Part shown: positions 49,160-57,508 of the stretch, in pieces
How the letters are laid out: every line of letters begins with the position of its first letter
How positions within the stretch are numbered: position 1 is the stretch's first letter
From: Formosa algae
GTDB lineage: Bacteria; Bacteroidota; Bacteroidia; Flavobacteriales; Flavobacteriaceae
Assembly (NCBI RefSeq): GCF_001439665.1
Contig: NZ_LMAK01000056.1
Span: forward strand, 1 to 64,000
Direction: 5' to 3'
Length of the DNA stretch: 64,000 bases
The notes under the pieces: model-generated
Told to the model about the DNA's origin: nothing
Seen by the model: the letters and a program-made list of their open reading frames with translations, nothing else
Database searches by the model: none
Made by a program: the position numbers and the translations under genes

Positions 49160-49768
49160 ATGTTAATTATAGGTCTTACAGGTGGCACAGGTTGTGGAAA
49201 AACAACCGTAGTGAATCAAATTTTAAACGAACTGCCAGAAGCGGAAGTTGGTATTATATCTCAGGATTCCTATTATAACGACACCTCTCACCTAGCTTAC
49301 GACGAACGTAAACGTATTAATTTCGATCACCCAAAGTCTATCGATTTTGACTTATTGGTATCGCATTTAAAACAATTAAAATCGGGGCAACCCATAGAAC
49401 AACCGGTATATTCTTTTGTAAAACACAACAGAACTGGAGATACCGTGTTAACACATCCAAGGAAAGTCATGATTGTTGAGGGTATTTTAATTTTTACCCA
49501 TCCAGATATTCGTGAATTATTTGATATTAAAATATTTGTTCATGCCGATAGTGACGAGCGTTTAATTAGACGATTAAAACGAGACATTGCAGAACGTGGT
49601 AGAGATTTAGATGAAGTTTTAAACCGTTATCAAACCACTTTAAAACCCATGCATCAGCAATTTATTGAACCGATGAAAGAGTATGCAGATATTATTATTC
49701 CGAACAATAAATTTAATACCGTAGCCATTGATATTGTGCGTACCATTATAAATGAAAAGCTAATATGA
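49160..49768 (+). CDS. udk: Uridine kinase
   Basis: This 202-residue cytoplasmic kinase has the P-loop GLTGGTGCGKTT, the nucleoside-binding stretch QDSYYNDTSHLAYDERKRINFDHP, and DSDERLIRRLKRDIAERGRD typical of uridine/cytidine kinases that make UMP/CMP in pyrimidine salvage. The usual P-loop form is GGSASGKT, so TGGTGCGKTT is a mild variation. Its stop overlaps the next start by 4 bp, indicating coupling with the DivIC/FtsB-like gene. Confidence 0.95.
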   Translation: MLIIGLTGGTGCGKTTVVNQILNELPEAEVGIISQDSYYNDTSHLAYDERKRINFDHPKSIDFDLLVSHLKQLKSGQPIEQPVYSFVKHNRTGDTVLTHPRKVMIVEGILIFTHPDIRELFDIKIFVHADSDERLIRRLKRDIAERGRDLDEVLNRYQTTLKPMHQQFIEPMKEYADIIIPNNKFNTVAIDIVRTIINEKLI

Positions 49769-50094
49769 AGTTGAATTTTTTCAATAATAAATATATAAAA
49801 CCTTTTAAAAATCCCTTTGTTATTCCAGGGATAGGCTTTGTTGTTTGGATGTTAATCTTTGACAGCAACTCCTTTTTAATTCATAATGAATTGAATAACG
49901 ATATAGATAAACTAAACGACAAAAAGGAATACTATATTAATGAAATTACAAAAGACCGTAAAGCTTATAAAAAATTAAATACAGAAGAAGGTATTGAAAA
50001 ATTCGCGCGAGAAACTTATTATTTGAAACGCGAAGATGAAGAAATTTATATTATTGAATACGAAGATAGCCTAAACGTTGAAACAAATGAATAA
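49765..50094 (+). CDS. Septum-formation initiator, FtsB/DivIC-like
   Basis: This 109-residue bitopic protein has one membrane helix (about 17-35) followed by a coiled coil (about 37-70, HNELNNDIDKLNDKKEYYINEI) and the family ending EEGIEKFARETYYLKREDEEIYIIEYED. It fits the FtsB/DivIC division proteins that bridge FtsL/FtsQ. It overlaps udk by 4 bp and the mutase small subunit by 8 bp, forming a three-gene coupled unit common in Flavobacteriaceae. Confidence 0.92.
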   Translation: MKLNFFNNKYIKPFKNPFVIPGIGFVVWMLIFDSNSFLIHNELNNDIDKLNDKKEYYINEITKDRKAYKKLNTEEGIEKFARETYYLKREDEEIYIIEYEDSLNVETNE

Positions 50095-51463
50095 CTCCAA
50101 TTTATTTGAAGCATTTACTCCTGTATCGGCTAAGGCGTGGAAACAAAAAATTCAATACGATTTAAATGGTGCCGACTATAATAAAACACTTATATCGTTA
50201 ACTCAGGAAGATATTAATATAAAACCGTTTTATAATACAGACGATTTTAAAACTGCTGCGTTAAATTTTAAGTCGAGTTCTATACCGTTTTCAATCACTC
50301 AAACTATTTATGTCAATTCAGAAGAGAAATCAAATACATTAGCACTTCAAGCTCTGCAAGATTATGCCGAAGCTATTGCTTTTACAATTCCGACATCCCA
50401 TTGCGATTTAAATCAATTGCTTATCAATATAGATTTGCAATTAGTCACTATCTATTTCGATTTACAATTTTCTGATTCAGATTTTATACAAAAACTAAAT
50501 ACTATAGCTCAAGACAAACAGGCTGTATTTTATGTCGGTTTCGATATTATTGGTCATCTTACAACAGATGGAAATTGGTACACTTCATTACAATCAGATT
50601 TTAAAACATTAGAATCTGTATTAAAAAACAGTACACATCTAAAAAGTAGTGTTTGTGTTAATTTAGCCAACTATCAAAATGCTGGTGCCACTATAACGCA
50701 ACAATTGGCTTATGGTTTAGCACATGCTAACGAATATTTACAAAGCGAAGCACAGCTATTTAATACTCAAATTACATTTAAAACAGCTATTGGTGCTAAT
50801 TACTTTTTTGAAATTGCAAAACTGCGTGCCTTACGCCAATTATGGTTTACTTTAGCCCAAGAGTATCAGGCTAACTCACATTGCCATATTCGTGCAACAC
50901 CTTCGCGACGCAATAAAACAATTTACAGCAGCCAAACCAACACATTACGTACACAAACAGAATGTATGAGTGCCATTTTAGGTGGTGCAGATAGTGTTTG
51001 TAATTTGGCTCACAATGCCTTGTTTCGAAAAAACCACATTAGCGGAGAACACACGGCAAGACATCAACTGCACATTTTAAAAGCAGAACAAGCCTTTGGA
51101 AAAGCAACAAACCCCGCTGATGGAGCCTATTATATAGAATCTGTAACGCAACAATTGGCAGACAAGGCACTAACGCTTTTTAAGGAGATTGAAGCCCAAG
51201 GCGGATTTTTAAAATTATTAAAGGCAGGGGTAATTCAGAAAAAAATTAAAGAAAGCGCCACAAAAGAGCAAGAGCTATTTAACAGTGGAGCGCTAAGATT
51301 AATCGGAGTTAATTCCCATATCGATACTAAAGAAAAACTTAAAGATAAACTAGAACTATATCCGTTTGTAAAGCAAAACCCTAGAAAAACACTTTTAGAA
51401 CCTATTATACCTAAACGATTAGCTGAACCTTTAGAGCAAGACCGATTAACATCTGAACATTAG
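50087..51463 (+). CDS. mutA: Methylmalonyl-CoA mutase small (beta) subunit
   Basis: I choose the ATG at 50087, inside the end of the preceding gene. A TTG three codons earlier is also in frame. The 458-residue product has the flavobacterial small-subunit pattern: FTPVSAKAWKQKIQYDLNGADY at the start, QNAGATITQQLAYGLAHANEYL, NYFFEIAKLRALRQLW, RTQTECMSAILGGADSVCN and ATNPADGAYYIESVTQQLAD. Small subunits are catalytically inactive TIM-barrel partners of the large subunit, so this gene looks ordinary. What is unusual is the gene pair that follows in the place of the large subunit. Confidence 0.9.
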   Translation: MNNSNLFEAFTPVSAKAWKQKIQYDLNGADYNKTLISLTQEDINIKPFYNTDDFKTAALNFKSSSIPFSITQTIYVNSEEKSNTLALQALQDYAEAIAFTIPTSHCDLNQLLINIDLQLVTIYFDLQFSDSDFIQKLNTIAQDKQAVFYVGFDIIGHLTTDGNWYTSLQSDFKTLESVLKNSTHLKSSVCVNLANYQNAGATITQQLAYGLAHANEYLQSEAQLFNTQITFKTAIGANYFFEIAKLRALRQLWFTLAQEYQANSHCHIRATPSRRNKTIYSSQTNTLRTQTECMSAILGGADSVCNLAHNALFRKNHISGEHTARHQLHILKAEQAFGKATNPADGAYYIESVTQQLADKALTLFKEIEAQGGFLKLLKAGVIQKKIKESATKEQELFNSGALRLIGVNSHIDTKEKLKDKLELYPFVKQNPRKTLLEPIIPKRLAEPLEQDRLTSEH

Positions 51464-51477
51464 TATATTATAATTAT

Positions 51478-52815
51478 ATGAGCAGAAAGAATCTACAACA
51501 TATCACTTTAAAGTCTATAGCACATCTTTCACATGAAGTTGACAAGTATTCAGATGCCAATCTTGAAGCTGTACAGCATTTGGATTTTGTTGCTGGAATT
51601 CCTCCATTTCTACGTGGCATATCATCAACCATGTATGTGACGTCACCTTGGAATATTATTCAATCTAACATATACACTTCTTCTGAAGAATATAATACCT
51701 TCTTGAAACACCGAGTTAAAGCAGGTCAGCGTACATTTTTATTCGATTTAAACACTCAGGATGAAACACATAGTTTACCGGAAACTTTAACCGATTTTGA
51801 AACAATCTTTAAAGATATTCCTTTAGATAAAATCACTATCTTATTAAAAAACACCTCTTATGCCCTACCCATACTTGCTTATTATTCAGAATTAGCAGAC
51901 ACTCAAGGGTTAGCATTAAACACCATAAAAGGCGGATTTAGTATTGATGTTTTAGAGTGTTTATCAGACTCAGAACATGGATATATTAATTCTGTTATGT
52001 TTTCTAATGATATTCTACCAAACTTTAATCGTATAGAAATCTCTGGAGACTCTTTAAAAACAAAAGAGTTCAACCCCGAAATGGAATTGGCATTAATGTT
52101 AACTTGCGGCGTAACTTACATACAAAAAGGATTAAATTTAGGATTACAAATAGACGATATCGCCTCTCGCCTATCGTTTAATTTTTCTATCGGAATACAG
52201 CATTTTACAGAAATTGCAAAACTTCGTGCCGCTCGATTATTATGGGCAAAAATTATAACAGCTTATCAACCTAAATCAAATGCATCCTCTGCATTGCAAA
52301 TTCATTGTAACACACAACATTTTGATACTTTTGATGATTATGATGTCTTAGCAAAATCGACAATTGGAGCTGCCGCAGCTGTGTTTGCAGGTACACAAGA
52401 TTTGCAAATTCAGACTACAAACATCGTTAATGTAGAATCCCAAAACATACACGCCTTTTTAAAAGCAGAAACACAAATTACAAAAACAGTCGATCCTTGG
52501 GCTGGTAGTTATTATGTTGAAAAAGAAACACATGAGCTAGCGCTTAATACTTGGAAATTAATAGAAGAATTTCAGAAAACAGGAGATATCCCTGAAGATA
52601 TTCAATCGGAATTAGCAACATATAAATCTGCAACGATACCTCATACAGATTCACTTAAAAACGGACCAAGTGATCGTGATGAAAAAGCAGTATCTAGTGC
52701 GCTTATAAATCTTGAAGACGAATTAAAGCACAATAGAAACACGGTTCTAAAATCTACAATTGCAGCTGTTAAAAATCAGGCGACTTTAAGTGAAATTGTA
52801 AAACTCTTAAATTAA
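51478..52815 (+). CDS. Diverged methylmalonyl-CoA mutase large-subunit TIM-barrel homologue
   Basis: This 445-residue protein keeps the large-subunit framework: the MSRKNLQHITLK start, HLDFVAGIPPFLRGISSTMYVTSPW, IPLDKITI, IEISG, RLSFNFSIGIQHFTEIAKLRAARLLWAKI and ITKTVDPWAGSYYVE. Residues expected for catalysis look lost. The QYAGFS segment with the substrate-contact Tyr reads QSNIYTS (residues 62-68). The SGYHMQEAG segment with the active-site His reads SGDSLKTKE (189-197). The FMVRN Arg region reads IDVLECL (156-162). Internal deletions shorten it relative to normal, and it ends before the cobalamin domain. These comparisons rest on remembered mutase sequences. Confidence 0.8.
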   Translation: MSRKNLQHITLKSIAHLSHEVDKYSDANLEAVQHLDFVAGIPPFLRGISSTMYVTSPWNIIQSNIYTSSEEYNTFLKHRVKAGQRTFLFDLNTQDETHSLPETLTDFETIFKDIPLDKITILLKNTSYALPILAYYSELADTQGLALNTIKGGFSIDVLECLSDSEHGYINSVMFSNDILPNFNRIEISGDSLKTKEFNPEMELALMLTCGVTYIQKGLNLGLQIDDIASRLSFNFSIGIQHFTEIAKLRAARLLWAKIITAYQPKSNASSALQIHCNTQHFDTFDDYDVLAKSTIGAAAAVFAGTQDLQIQTTNIVNVESQNIHAFLKAETQITKTVDPWAGSYYVEKETHELALNTWKLIEEFQKTGDIPEDIQSELATYKSATIPHTDSLKNGPSDRDEKAVSSALINLEDELKHNRNTVLKSTIAAVKNQATLSEIVKLLN

Positions 52816-52823
52816 TTTTTGAT

Positions 52824-53297
52824 ATGGAACGTACTGAAAACACAGATCAAGCCATACTCTTACAAGCAAAAACATTGGCCGATATTTTTGCGACTCAAGA
52901 AGGACGCCGTCCGCGTTTATTATTGTCTAATTTAAACAAAGCAGACGAGACCAATTACGAAAAACATATAGCTACTGCTTATGCAGATATAGGTTTCGAT
53001 GTCGACTTAGCTCCGCTCTTTCAAAATCCAAAAGACATTGCTAAACAAGCTATAGAAAACGATGTTCATGCCATTCATTTACATGCCTTAACTCCGAAGA
53101 CTACAGCGATGGTTTCAGAAATTACCTCGTCGCTTTTAGATTATGATCGTGAAGATATTTTAATTGTTGTGGATGGTAATGACCTCTCTGAAACAGATAA
53201 CAAAACATTGAATGATTACGGTGTACATATACTATTACAACCAAATACCTCAACACAATCTGCTGCCATTAGCATTTTAAAGGCATTAACAGCATAA
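52824..53297 (+). CDS. Stand-alone cobalamin-binding-domain homologue with lost B12 motif
   Basis: This 157-residue protein matches the C-terminal B12-binding domain of mutase large subunits: TLADIFATQEGRRPRLLLSNL, IATAYADIGFDVDLAPLFQNP, AIENDVHAIHLHAL and the DREDILIVVDG strand. The DxHxxG loop, whose His ligates cobalt, is replaced by KADETNYEKH (residues 39-48). The GG of the VVGG strand is replaced by DGND. Cobalamin binding is therefore doubtful. The gene starts 8 bp after the preceding gene, so the two correspond to one normal large subunit split in two. Confidence 0.82.
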   Translation: MERTENTDQAILLQAKTLADIFATQEGRRPRLLLSNLNKADETNYEKHIATAYADIGFDVDLAPLFQNPKDIAKQAIENDVHAIHLHALTPKTTAMVSEITSSLLDYDREDILIVVDGNDLSETDNKTLNDYGVHILLQPNTSTQSAAISILKALTA

Positions 53298-54014: not shown

Positions 54015-54449
54015 ATGTTTTCAAAAGCATGTGAATACGGTATTCGAGCTTCAATTTTTATAGCCTTAAATTCTTTGGAACACAGACGTGTGGGACCTAA
54101 AGAAATTGCTAAAGAGATTAACTCTCCAGAAGCTTTTACTGCCAAAATTTTACAAGCTTTAGTACGCAACAATGTTGTTAATTCTGTTAAAGGTGCCCAT
54201 GGTGGTTTTGAAATAGATAAAAAAGACATAAAAACCATTATGATCGCAGATATTGTTAAGGCAATAGATGGAGACAACGTTTATAAAGGTTGCGGATTAG
54301 GATTACATGAATGTAATGAAAACAAACCCTGCCCTATGCATGAAAAATTTAAATTGGTAAGAGCCGAATTGAAGTATATGTTAGAATCTACAGATTTAGA
54401 ATCTTTGGCGTTAGACTTAAAATTAGGAGACACCTTTTTGAAAGTGTAA
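54015..54449 (+). CDS. Rrf2-family transcriptional regulator (Fe-S type), copy 1
   Basis: This 144-residue regulator has an N-terminal winged helix (about 1-65, EIAKEINSPEAFTAKILQALVRNNVVNSVKGAHGGFEI). A cysteine triad at Cys93, Cys100 and Cys106 (CGLGLHECNENKPC) is expected to hold an iron-sulfur cluster as in NsrR/IscR/RsrR. Loss of the cluster on contact with NO would release the promoter. It precedes norB and has a CGGATAAA-type operator overlapping its own promoter. It has a close paralogue at 62569-63003 with the same cysteine positions. Confidence 0.93.
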   Translation: MFSKACEYGIRASIFIALNSLEHRRVGPKEIAKEINSPEAFTAKILQALVRNNVVNSVKGAHGGFEIDKKDIKTIMIADIVKAIDGDNVYKGCGLGLHECNENKPCPMHEKFKLVRAELKYMLESTDLESLALDLKLGDTFLKV

Positions 54450-54467
54450 AAAAATTTATTCATAAAG

Positions 54468-54483
54468 AGGACAATTTTATCCG
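54468..54483 (-). promoter_or_regulatory. Candidate Rrf2 operator upstream of the NO reductase gene
   Basis: Read on the minus strand, CGGATAAAATTGTCCT, flanked by TTAATT on the same side as the other sites, matches 12-13 of 16 positions of the nirK palindrome. It lies 40 bp upstream of the norB start and 19 bp after the end of the Rrf2 gene. Confidence 0.6.
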
Positions 54484-54522
54484 AATTAAAATAAAATTAA
54501 TGAACTAACTATTTTTTGAATC

Positions 54523-56769
54523 ATGAACAAAGAAAAAAAACTATGGATTATTTTCGGCGCAGTAATACTCATTTCCTTTAGTGTTTTAGGGTATTACGGC
54601 TTCGAAATTTATCAGCAATCGCCACCTATACCTAAAGCAATAGTATCTACTCAAGGTGAAACGATTTTTAATGAAACTGATATCCAAGACGGACAAAACA
54701 TTTGGCAAAGTATTGGAGGTCAAGAATTGGGTTCTATTTGGGGACATGGAGCATACGTGGCACCCGATTGGACTGCAGACTGGCTTCATAGAGAAGCCGT
54801 TTACATCTTGGATTTGTATGCTAAAACGGATTTTAACAAACCATACGAAGATCTGAACGATGAGCAACAAGCCAGTTTAAAAATACGATTACAAAACGAT
54901 GTTAGAACAAATACGTATAATGAAACATCTAAAACCATAACTATTAGTGAACATCGCGAAAAAGCCATTGCACATTTAAGTGCATACTATCACGGGTTAT
55001 TTACTAACGATCCATCTTTCGATAAACTGAGAGCTGATTATGCCATCCCGACAAACACTATAAAAGATGAGGCTAAAATGCATAAAATGAATGCATTTTT
55101 CTTCTGGGCAACTTGGGCTACCGTTACCGAAAGACCAGATAGTAAAGTTAGTTATACACATAATTGGCCAGCAGACGAGTTGGTAGGAAATAGACCTACC
55201 ACAGATTTAATGGTCTGGTCTGGTGTGAGCATAATATTACTAATTTTATGTATTGGTATACTAGTGTTTTACCATGTAAAATCGGGAGCAGACGAAGATA
55301 CTCCTGCCCCAGCCGAAGATCCGCTCTTAAAGCAAGGTATGACACCGAGTATGCATCTCATAAAAAAATACTTTTGGGTCGTTACACTACTCATGGTTTT
55401 ACAAATGTTATTAGGTATAGTAACTGCACATTATGGTGTAGAAGGCGACGGATTTTATGGGTTTGCTTTAGATCAAATTTTACCATATTCTGTAACAAGA
55501 ACTTGGCATACACAACTCGCTATTTTTTGGATTGCCACTGCTTGGTTAGCTACAGGTTTATATATTGCACCAGCCGTATCCGGGAAAGATCCGAAGTTTC
55601 AAAAATTTGGAGTTAATTTCTTATTCTTCGCCCTACTTAATATTGTATTAGGTTCTATGCTTGGGCAATGGTTTGGAGTGATGCAAAAACTAAATTATGT
55701 CGATAATTTCTGGTTTGGTCATCAAGGTTATGAATACGTAGATTTAGGTCGTTTCTGGCAAATATTCTTATTTATTGGACTTGTACTCTGGTTAGCTTTA
55801 ATGGTTAGACCTTTGTTACCGGTTTTAAAACGTAAAACTGAAGAAAAGAACTTGATTATTATGTTCTTAATTTCATGTACAGCGATTGCCTTATTCTATG
55901 CGTCTGGATTAATGTGGGGACAACATACCAATTTAGCGATTGCTGAATATTGGAGATGGTGGGTAGTACACTTATGGGTAGAGGGATTTTTTGAAGTTTT
56001 TGCTACCGTAGTTATCGCTTTCCTATTTGTCCGCTTAGGATTACTAAAAACAAAAACAGCTACTTTAAATGTACTACTTGCAACCATCGTCTTTATGTCT
56101 GGAGGTATTTTAGGAACTTTTCATCATTTATATTTTTCGGGAACACCAAAAGCAGTCATGGCATTAGGAGCGACATTCAGTGCTCTAGAAGTTGTACCAC
56201 TAACCTTAATTGGATATGAAGCCTATCACAATTACAAATTATCGAAAGCCACCAAATGGATTGCAGATTACAAGTGGCCCATTTACTTTATGATAGCCGT
56301 AGCCTTTTGGAATTTCTTAGGTGCAGGAATCTTCGGGTTTATTATTAATCCGCCAATAGCGTTATACTATGTACAAGGCTTAAATACTACGCCTTTACAT
56401 GCTCATACTGCATTGTTTGGAGTTTACGGCATGTTAGGAATTGGATTAATGTTATTTGTATTACGAAGTTTGTATCGCCATGTGCAATGGAATACAAAAC
56501 TTATAAAACTATCATTCTGGTCTCTAAATATCGGATTATTAGCAATGGCTGTATTAAGTCTGTTACCAATGGGAATTTGGCAAGCTATTGAAAGTATAGA
56601 ACATGGCATGTGGTATGCACGTTCTTCAGCATTAATGCAAAACCCAGACATGATTACCCTAAAATGGTTACGAACTATTGGCGATGTTATTTTCGCTGTA
56701 GGAATCGTTACAATATGCTGGTTTGTATTCGAATTAACCTTGAAAAATAAAACAACAAAACACAATTAA
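54523..56769 (+). CDS. norB: Quinol-dependent nitric-oxide reductase (qNOR)
   Basis: This 748-residue single-subunit reductase is of the heme-copper oxidase superfamily. After an N-terminal membrane helix comes the NorC-like extension (about 35-240) with QDGQNIWQSIGGQELGSIWGHG. A 12-helix NorB core follows. Visible ligands include His in RTWHTQLAIFW, the FeB-site segment VVHLWVEGFFEVF with Glu residues, HHLYF, and HAHTALFGVYG. It reduces NO to N2O with quinol electrons, for NO detoxification or partial denitrification. It lies after the Rrf2 regulator and before ric in one plus-strand block. Confidence 0.94.
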   Translation: MNKEKKLWIIFGAVILISFSVLGYYGFEIYQQSPPIPKAIVSTQGETIFNETDIQDGQNIWQSIGGQELGSIWGHGAYVAPDWTADWLHREAVYILDLYAKTDFNKPYEDLNDEQQASLKIRLQNDVRTNTYNETSKTITISEHREKAIAHLSAYYHGLFTNDPSFDKLRADYAIPTNTIKDEAKMHKMNAFFFWATWATVTERPDSKVSYTHNWPADELVGNRPTTDLMVWSGVSIILLILCIGILVFYHVKSGADEDTPAPAEDPLLKQGMTPSMHLIKKYFWVVTLLMVLQMLLGIVTAHYGVEGDGFYGFALDQILPYSVTRTWHTQLAIFWIATAWLATGLYIAPAVSGKDPKFQKFGVNFLFFALLNIVLGSMLGQWFGVMQKLNYVDNFWFGHQGYEYVDLGRFWQIFLFIGLVLWLALMVRPLLPVLKRKTEEKNLIIMFLISCTAIALFYASGLMWGQHTNLAIAEYWRWWVVHLWVEGFFEVFATVVIAFLFVRLGLLKTKTATLNVLLATIVFMSGGILGTFHHLYFSGTPKAVMALGATFSALEVVPLTLIGYEAYHNYKLSKATKWIADYKWPIYFMIAVAFWNFLGAGIFGFIINPPIALYYVQGLNTTPLHAHTALFGVYGMLGIGLMLFVLRSLYRHVQWNTKLIKLSFWSLNIGLLAMAVLSLLPMGIWQAIESIEHGMWYARSSALMQNPDMITLKWLRTIGDVIFAVGIVTICWFVFELTLKNKTTKHN

Positions 56770-56782
56770 AACAGATAATATT

Positions 56783-57508
56783 ATGGAAGCAATAACACAA
56801 AAACACGTAGGCGCATTTGTTGCAGAAGACTTTAGAACAGCAGCAGTTTTTACAAAATATGGAATCGATTTTTGCTGTAGAGGGAACAGATCGTTAGAAG
56901 ATGTTTGTGAGAAAAACGGCATTGTAACAAGTGAATTGGTAAATAGTTTAGAACATGTTTTAAACACTAAAACCGATCAATCTATAGATTACAAATCTTG
57001 GCCTTTGGATTTATTAATTGATTATATCGAGAAAAAACACCACCGTTATGTGGAAGAAAAGTCGCCTATTATCAAACAATTTCTAGATAAACTTTGCAAA
57101 GTTCATGGGGAAAGACATCCGGAGTTATTTGAAATTAATGACTTATTTACGGCATCTGCAGGCGAATTGGCACAACATTTAAAGAAAGAAGAACTTGTAT
57201 TATTTCCTTTCGTTAAAAAACTTTTAAAAGCAAAAGCAGCTAATTCTCCCTTAGAAGCACCTGGTTTTGGAACAGTTAAAAATCCGATTGCCATGATGAT
57301 GCAAGAACACGATAATGAAGGTGTACGTTTTAGACAAATTGCATCCATCTCCGACAATTACACACCACCTGCAGATGCTTGTAACACTTACAAAGTTACC
57401 TTTGCGATGCTAGAGGAATTTGAACAAGATTTACACCTTCACATTCACTTAGAAAATAATATTTTATTTCCGGCCGCAGAGGTTTTAGAAAGCCAGTTCT
57501 GTTTATAA
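56783..57508 (+). CDS. ric: Iron-sulfur cluster repair di-iron protein (Ric/ScdA/YtfE)
   Basis: This 241-residue protein has the N-terminal ScdA domain (KYGIDFCCRGNRSLEDVCEKNG, CysCys at about 31-32) and a hemerythrin-like di-iron domain with histidines in HHRYVEEKSPII, HGERHPELFEI, LAQHLKKEELVLFP, MQEHDNEGVRF and HLHIHLENNILFP. It repairs Fe-S centres damaged by NO and may release iron or convert NO. It starts 14 bp after norB, so the two form a nitrosative-stress operon. An attenuator-like hairpin follows it. Confidence 0.95.
   Translation: MEAITQKHVGAFVAEDFRTAAVFTKYGIDFCCRGNRSLEDVCEKNGIVTSELVNSLEHVLNTKTDQSIDYKSWPLDLLIDYIEKKHHRYVEEKSPIIKQFLDKLCKVHGERHPELFEINDLFTASAGELAQHLKKEELVLFPFVKKLLKAKAANSPLEAPGFGTVKNPIAMMMQEHDNEGVRFRQIASISDNYTPPADACNTYKVTFAMLEEFEQDLHLHIHLENNILFPAAEVLESQFCL

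Follow-up and report, generated by a model that had tools for sequence, protein, structure and literature searches.

A split MutB without catalytic and cobalamin-binding residues is retained beside MutA in Formosa algae, whose genome carries a second methylmalonyl-CoA mutase

The window, i.e. the whole stretch of 64,000 nt that was analysed, is located on contig C56 of the 4.3 Mb Formosa algae genome. Its forward strand, on which all features described below are located, contains an operon in the order udk, divIC, mutA, MutB barrel gene and B12-fold gene. The first gene (49160..49768; PF00485, 153 bits) encodes a uridine kinase-like protein and the second (49765..50094; PF04977, 31.2 bits) a DivIC-like septum formation initiator. 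The native short MutA, the small non-catalytic subunit of methylmalonyl-CoA mutase (MCM), comprises 458 residues (50087..51463; PF01642, 220 bits). Its start, read from the sequence as the ATG at 50087, overlaps the end of divIC at 50094, and a B12-fold domain is absent from it by Pfam search. MutA is followed after 14 nt by a degenerate MutB substrate-barrel protein of 445 residues (51478..52815; PF01642, 257 bits) and, after a gap of 8 nt, by a free B12-fold protein of 157 residues (52824..53297; PF02310, 25.6 bits). The two adjacent genes together correspond to one large subunit, as had been proposed: both frames are present at 51478–53297 and match the barrel and the B12 fold, respectively. 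They are also open and tightly spaced as described, with no stops in the barrel gene. The udk-divIC-mutA order is found in 22 of the 24 native short MutA loci read, G278 and G027 being the exceptions. Formosa G005 has the same gene order with a 457-residue MutA and an unsplit MutB of 709 residues, which is likely the ancestral state of the Formosa locus.

The window barrel was aligned with 77 intact flavobacterial MutBs. The columns are taken from this alignment, and the site names follow what we take to be the P. shermanii numbering. The barrel has no equivalents of R82, T85, R87, Y89, Q197, R207, Y243, H244, F287 and Q330. The positions of T85, R87, Y89, Q197, R207, Y243 and H244 are occupied by Asn, Ile, Ser, Ser, a gap, Asp and Ser, respectively. 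In all 77 intact MutBs, Y89, R207, Y243 and H244 are Tyr, Arg, Tyr and His. The former CoA/substrate segment, in which T85, R87 and Y89 are changed, now reads PWNIIQS (51646..51666) with Ser in place of R82 just before it, and the former Tyr243-His244 pair is Asp-Ser (52048..52053). Deletions occur in the first half of the barrel and the HRGYDSD region is mostly deleted. Thus the predicted absence of the substrate Tyr, the active-site His and the Arg is borne out: the protein has the substrate barrel of MutB and lacks the equivalents of Tyr89, Arg207, Tyr243 and His244. The changes are substitutions or deletions, and no catalytic residues were found at shifted positions in the alignment with intact MutBs, which rules out that they are displaced rather than lost. 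Lone survivors are found among the Formosa barrels, namely Y89 in the uncultured isolate 2B12100 (2B12), T85 in G001 and H244 in G003; none of these barrels keeps the complete catalytic set. All five Formosa barrels still have R283, S285 and Q361, to which the window barrel adds N236 and H328.

The conservation is unevenly distributed over the barrel. In the Formosa barrels the N-terminal arm keeps 8–9 of 9 conserved columns and the AGxxPYLRG-TMY segment 10–11 of 13, followed by strand 5/helix 5 (28–33 of 47) and strand 8 (17–21 of 29). Strands 1–4 (33–40 of 137), strands 6–7 (8–15 of 38) and the linker (12–18 of 63) are poorly kept. Accordingly, strand 5/helix 5 and strand 8 are well kept in the C-terminal part of the window barrel (52024..52572) and strands 6–7 poorly (14 of 38 columns); this stretch is partly kept in the mini-MutBs of other genera too. 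The PF01642 match covers profile positions 12–405 of 512 with a score far above the cut-off of 22.1 bits. The AlphaFold model of the barrel (pLDDT 69.5, pTM 0.71) has MCM catalytic chains as its top PDB matches; the alignments behind this model and that of the B12-fold protein include intact relatives, and both models may lean to the intact fold.

The free B12-fold protein scores below the curated PF02310 cut-off of 32.1 bits. Its model (pLDDT 85.3) has its best PDB match in 8dpb_D, the cobalamin domain of MCM in complex with MeaB. The DGHDRG cobalt-ligand loop, which had been reported missing, is indeed replaced by ADETNY (52941..52958), and only 4 of the 22 conserved columns of the cobalamin motif (DxHxxG...SxL...GG) are kept. 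According to PMC9974510 and PMC10356863, the mutase residues contacting MeaB or MMAA comprise the edge strand, Asp609/Asp640, Asp632, Asp634, Asp644, Phe651, Gln652, Asp663, Arg614, Arg616 and Arg694; human Asp640 is given there as the counterpart of bacterial Asp609, and the two numberings were aligned on this pair. The set of docking-edge columns was put together in this analysis from these two papers, leaving out Glu577, which is not conserved here. The window protein retains GRRPR (52902..52916) as part of the putative G-protein docking edge, the edge strand FDVDL (52995..53009), whose counterpart in the solved complex is paired with switch I of MeaB, and END (53055..53063) at the probable MeaB salt-bridge positions.

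Among ten free B12-fold proteins, which are not independent as six are from Formosa, 10 of the 13 docking-edge columns are kept in at least eight (115 of 130 cells). For the cobalamin motif this holds for none of the 22 columns (58 of 220 cells; 1 to 13 per protein), and for other conserved columns for 22 of 60 (356 of 600 cells). For docking against other columns Fisher p is 0.009, and in a comparison with polar columns only Mann-Whitney p is 0.013. With an earlier, smaller docking set from one paper, 7 of 8 columns are kept. The equivalents of human D663 and bacterial Asp632 are Glu here. MutA itself is an ancient pseudo-subunit, a mutase homologue with a barrel and a B12 domain incapable of catalysis (PMC10481361). 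The B12 fold of the long MutA described below served as a control; unlike the free proteins, it keeps little of the docking edge (15 of 52 cells in four proteins) and 12 of 88 cells of the cobalamin motif. Twelve of these 15 docking cells fall at R581, F610 and V612, which are kept in all four domains, so part of the edge signal may reflect a constraint of the fold. MeaB is present in 21 of the 28 genomes searched, which are all 21 MCM holders. It was not found in the other seven, among them G170, G027 and G278, which also have no B12-domain match.

The description of the small subunit as normal-looking is correct insofar as it is a short MutA in udk-divIC-mutA synteny. Its sequence, on the other hand, departs from the norm: it keeps 112 of the 127 columns conserved in 71 partnered MutAs, which themselves keep a median of about 125 (fifth percentile about 119). 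In the five Formosa genomes with a barrel, MutA has 110–117 of these columns, and in G004 it has 123. The losses in Formosa cluster at window residues 281–337 and 413–418. Positions 281–283, 309, 336, 416, 418 and others are lost repeatedly in lineages with a degenerate MutB; these positions may form a face needed only by the active mutase. The MutAs without any native MutB ("clean orphans") of G088, G334, G348 and G137 keep 125–126 columns (126 each in G334 and G137) and the other four 116–122. In a MutA tree, the mean distances of the split and orphan lineages do not exceed the range covered by 70 partnered MutAs (z −1.3 to 2.1), with G295 (z 3.9) and G170 (z 3.7) as outliers. The Formosa barrels are extreme among MutBs (z 18.5–21.2); elsewhere the barrels reach 6.1 (G148), 2.8 (G180), 1.9 (G361) and 1.5 (Mariniflexile).

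Both MutB pieces and MutA are under purifying selection. For the closest Formosa pair (G002 and 2B12, dS about 0.7), dN/dS is 0.37 for the barrel (bootstrap 0.28–0.48), 0.23 for the B12-fold protein (0.14–0.36) and 0.13 for MutA (0.09–0.18). Mean pN/pS in Formosa is 0.55 for the barrel (10 pairs), 0.54 for the B12-fold protein (15) and 0.33 for MutA (21). The second-copy MutB has a mean pN/pS of 0.075 and its MutA 0.25 (10 pairs each), and udk and the PQQ-dehydrogenase-like gene have 0.07 and 0.21, respectively (21 pairs each). With dN/dS of 0.03–0.06 for the second-copy MutB, the MutB pieces are far less constrained than a working MutB. When one lineage is simulated under neutrality, the barrel gene acquires 12.7 stops on average and none of 500 runs is free of stops; the real gene has none. 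For the B12-fold gene the mean is 3.3 stops and 3.2% of the runs are stop-free. The orphan MutAs of G334 and G137, which have no native MutB, show a dN/dS of 0.10 at a dS of 0.82. The pieces thus have neither the stops or frameshifts nor the dN/dS near 1 of a pseudogene, and a recent pseudogene is ruled out by dN/dS and simulation. The original prediction of a retained, apparently non-catalytic locus rather than simple decay is therefore supported by the open frames of the split pair in the Formosa genomes, by dN/dS values clearly below 1 and by the absence of the simulated stops; the relatives in Formosa do not carry mere frameshifted remnants.

A search for a separate intact large subunit was successful. 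Contig C62 carries a complete second MCM with frames of 717 and 614 residues, and the host genome contains an additional IcmF-type frame of 1169 residues. The second MCM consists of a long MutA of about 603 residues and a MutB of 712 residues, and all six catalytic and cobalamin motifs searched are present in the nine second-copy MutBs checked. Its neighbours in Formosa and other relatives are presumably an acetyl-CoA hydrolase/CoA-transferase and an oxaloacetate decarboxylase, by their appearance. The C-terminal domain of the second-copy long MutA (L042 8643–10454) aligns as a B12 fold that has degenerated and carries no cobalamin motif, an older example of the same fate. In G098 (C1:352784–354153, near L207) the long MutA is distributed over two frames of 187 and 442 residues; this second copy may itself be broken or contain a sequencing error.

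The degenerate native locus is associated with the second MCM. Among six Formosa genomes, all five with a second MCM have a split or degenerate native locus, and the sixth has an ordinary MutB and no second MCM. In Formosa G004 the barrel is lost, with MutA and the B12-fold gene kept. The long MutA is present in 25 of 397 genomes of the family Flavobacteriaceae. In 15 of these the native MutB is split, shrunken or lost with the native MutA kept. Seven of them have a reduced MutB: it is split in G000, G003, G148 and G361, limited to the barrel in G180 and to the B12 fold in G161, and in G295 it is a mini-MutB of 205 residues. MutA stands alone in the other eight, from seven genera (G059, G088, G098, G137, G146, G173, G334 and G348), and no MutB remnants were found within about 3 kb downstream of these eight genes at E 0.01. 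Seven further genomes (G019, G067, G074, G144, G223, G288 and G390) have both pairs at full length, a class that is defined by frame lengths; the long MutA of G144, G223 and G390 matches at only 44–45% identity and may be of another type. The native pair is lost in G029, G279 and G284. A native MutB without a native MutA was found in none of the 25 genomes. In genomes with a second MCM, the native MutA thus often outlives a reduced or lost native MutB.

Among the genomes without long MutA, 57 of the 397 have no MutB B12-domain match (37 of them deduced from gaps in the list numbering, with an agreeing tally), and 46 of these 57 also have no MutA-family match. Without a second MCM, MutA has thus mostly been lost. 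G143 (96% complete, 200 contigs) has a MutA beside an unrelated gene. G412, G297 and G075 were left out as MutA-only cases since their assemblies are 76–82% complete; in G075 and G297 MutA is located near a contig end. Of the 340 MutB-positive genomes of the family, 34 of the weakest-scoring ones without long MutA were inspected: 31 have frames of at least 687 residues, two frames end at contig ends and the last one is G177. In G177 (L282 3025–5069) a frameshift separates the MutB barrel from the B12 domain, with DGHDRG and RQYAG still present. This frameshift, in a genome without long MutA, is either an error or a very early split and was not counted.

The split is not confined to the window. 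It is present in three single-contig Formosa genomes (G001–G003), with barrel identities of 42–49% among the four, and in Mariniflexile fucanivorans, G148 and G361 MutB is split at the same linker; in G180 only the barrel is found. M. fucanivorans, which has a second MCM, encodes pieces of 574 and 156 residues. Its barrel is 68% identical to intact MutB (35–36% in Formosa). The Mariniflexile and G361 barrels keep several active-site residues, e.g. Y243 and H244, so those splits need not be inactive. In the genus of G361, the locus is degenerate in the two species that have a second MCM, and the three without it have a MutB of 708–709 residues. All 77 loci of other named relatives contain an unsplit MutB according to one pattern scan. 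Mini-MutBs of 193–258 residues are located beside MutA in G170, G295, G027 and G278. In G170, G027 and G278 no PF01642 match was found besides the locus of MutA and mini-MutB. The minis of G027 and G278 are not recognised by PF01642 and are tied to MutB by their position, by AGxPPYxRG and TKTIDPF-like motifs and by weak BLAST links. In those of G295 and G170, 121–123 of the 137 strand 1–4 columns are deleted and the better-kept segments are partly retained.

One ancestral split for all lineages is disfavoured by the MutA tree. In this tree, the sister group of G361 is the intact G423/G425 (support 0.96), with G180 falling outside of them. G148 clusters with intact Algibacter (0.91), and within Formosa the intact G005 branches off first (0.995). 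The tree of MutA plus barrel differs: split Formosa and the MutA-only lineages form a group with G148 and Mariniflexile, away from intact G005, with G361 and G180 staying in their own genus. This grouping is read as attraction by long branches and missing data.

Heterodimeric MCM (MutA/MutB; P. shermanii 1REQ, M. tuberculosis 6OXC) is homologous in sequence and predicted fold, and its MutA-MutB gene order matches the intact G005 locus. In the window, however, MutB is split and without catalytic and cobalamin residues, and the genome contains a complete second MCM. The two-chain B12 mutases, 2-hydroxyisobutyryl-CoA mutase (4R3U) and archaeal MCM (2YXB), likewise carry the B12 fold on its own chain, and both entries are among the sequence and structure matches. 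Mutases of these types are active enzymes with a cobalamin motif, whereas the split observed here lacks this motif and is confined to some lineages. The complexes of MeaB with the MCM domain (8DPB) and of human MMAA with MMUT (8GJU) are related to the free B12-fold protein through the largely conserved residues of its putative docking edge, but it has no cobalamin motif to load. Among CC-licensed PMC papers, none was found on MCM as a pseudoenzyme, and those on Formosa and MCM, judged by their listing, do not deal with this subject. To our knowledge, the reason why heterodimeric MCMs carry a non-catalytic MutA is unexplained. Lineages whose MutA outlives MutB under strong purifying selection open a MutB-independent role to a direct test. 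In the graded series, a large radical enzyme is reduced in several steps in several genera, and the free B12-fold proteins may naturally separate chaperone docking from cofactor binding, which would be useful for the MeaB/MMAA field.

In the native locus, MutB no longer has its substrate, radical-chemistry and cobalamin sites, and the break in it falls at the interdomain linker. The preferred explanation, to which we give an even chance, is that in this native flavobacterial MCM locus the catalytic job passed to the second MCM and that the product is now a MutA-centred, cofactor-blind remnant complex. A complete MCM elsewhere in the genome would have taken over catalysis, and selection would now act on a scaffold centred on MutA. 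The barrel would be kept since its N-terminal arm, the AGxPPxLRGxxxTMY segment, strand 5/helix 5 and strand 8 still pack on MutA; convergence between lineages suggests that the kept segments face MutA. The free B12-fold domain would be kept as it still presents an edge for docking on the G-protein chaperone MeaB; without itself loading B12, it could hold or titrate MeaB or stimulate it. Some findings speak against this explanation. Strands 6–7 are poorly conserved although they are part of the kept half, and the constraint on the barrel is relaxed (0.37). Seven of the 25 genomes keep both pairs, and MutA is mostly missing where no second MCM exists. Furthermore, G004 and G161 have the B12 fold without a barrel and eight genomes have MutA alone, so no MutB piece is generally needed. 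A broader version appears doubtful: retired mutases would repeatedly yield a B12-independent system of MutA and a (β/α) half-barrel scaffold, as in G170, G027 and G278, and where MeaB exists, a B12-fold mimic would dock on it and regulate or compete for B12 loading of the second MCM.

The chief rival, possible though rather unlikely, is a decay that is merely slowed. MutB would be lost stepwise by splitting, shrinking and deletion without any new role for the pieces; with the same modest probability, they would persist only because MutA needs a partner for folding or because too little time has passed. The series from Mariniflexile through Formosa to G004, which has no barrel, fits such a course, as do the eight genomes without MutB or a nearby remnant and the weaker constraint on the pieces compared with the working copy. 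On the other hand, both pieces have dN/dS values considerably below 1 and the frames are open in every Formosa species having them. Additionally, the same segments are kept in separate lineages, and mini-MutBs persist in three genomes in which no other mutase-family gene was found.

It is unlikely that the second MutB has adopted the native MutA as an alternative small subunit, with the MutB pieces as bystanders. The four best-conserved clean-orphan MutAs (G088, G334, G348 and G137), all from genomes with a second MutB, and the 46 of 57 MutB-less genomes without a MutA-family match would be in line with such a recruitment. Yet the second MutB already adjoins its own long MutA, no MutB other than the minis was found in G170, G027 and G278, which keep MutA, and in Formosa selection acts on the MutB pieces themselves. 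It is very improbable that the barrel is a new CoA-binding enzyme or sensor that acts on acyl-CoA without B12. R283, S285 and Q361, which presumably contact CoA, are retained in every Formosa barrel with the radical-chemistry residues mostly gone. Of the other sites that we take to be CoA contacts, however, none of the five Formosa barrels retains R82 or R87 and only one of them retains T85; G004 has no barrel at all, and most of these sites are missing from the two tabulated mini-MutBs. An assembly or sequencing artefact, for which the plain frameshift in the motif-keeping MutB of the relative G177 could be cited, is refuted by the same split in G001–G003 at the barrel identities given above and has practically no probability.

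Two sets of neighbouring genes were observed. Downstream of the locus, at 54015–57508 of the window, there are genes for an Rrf2-like regulator, a nitric-oxide-reductase-like protein of 748 residues and a RIC-like iron-sulfur-repair protein, named by resemblance. This trio follows the locus in several Formosa genomes also; within the stretches examined, the Rrf2-like gene alone is present in G003 and all three are missing from G005. In several genera, MutA is followed by a putative lipoprotein of 198–220 residues with SCKKE or SCKNE near its start (L157 10090–10743, L260 5405–6055, L261 6775–7437 and L262 4913–5509). In G361 it sits between MutA and the MutB barrel.
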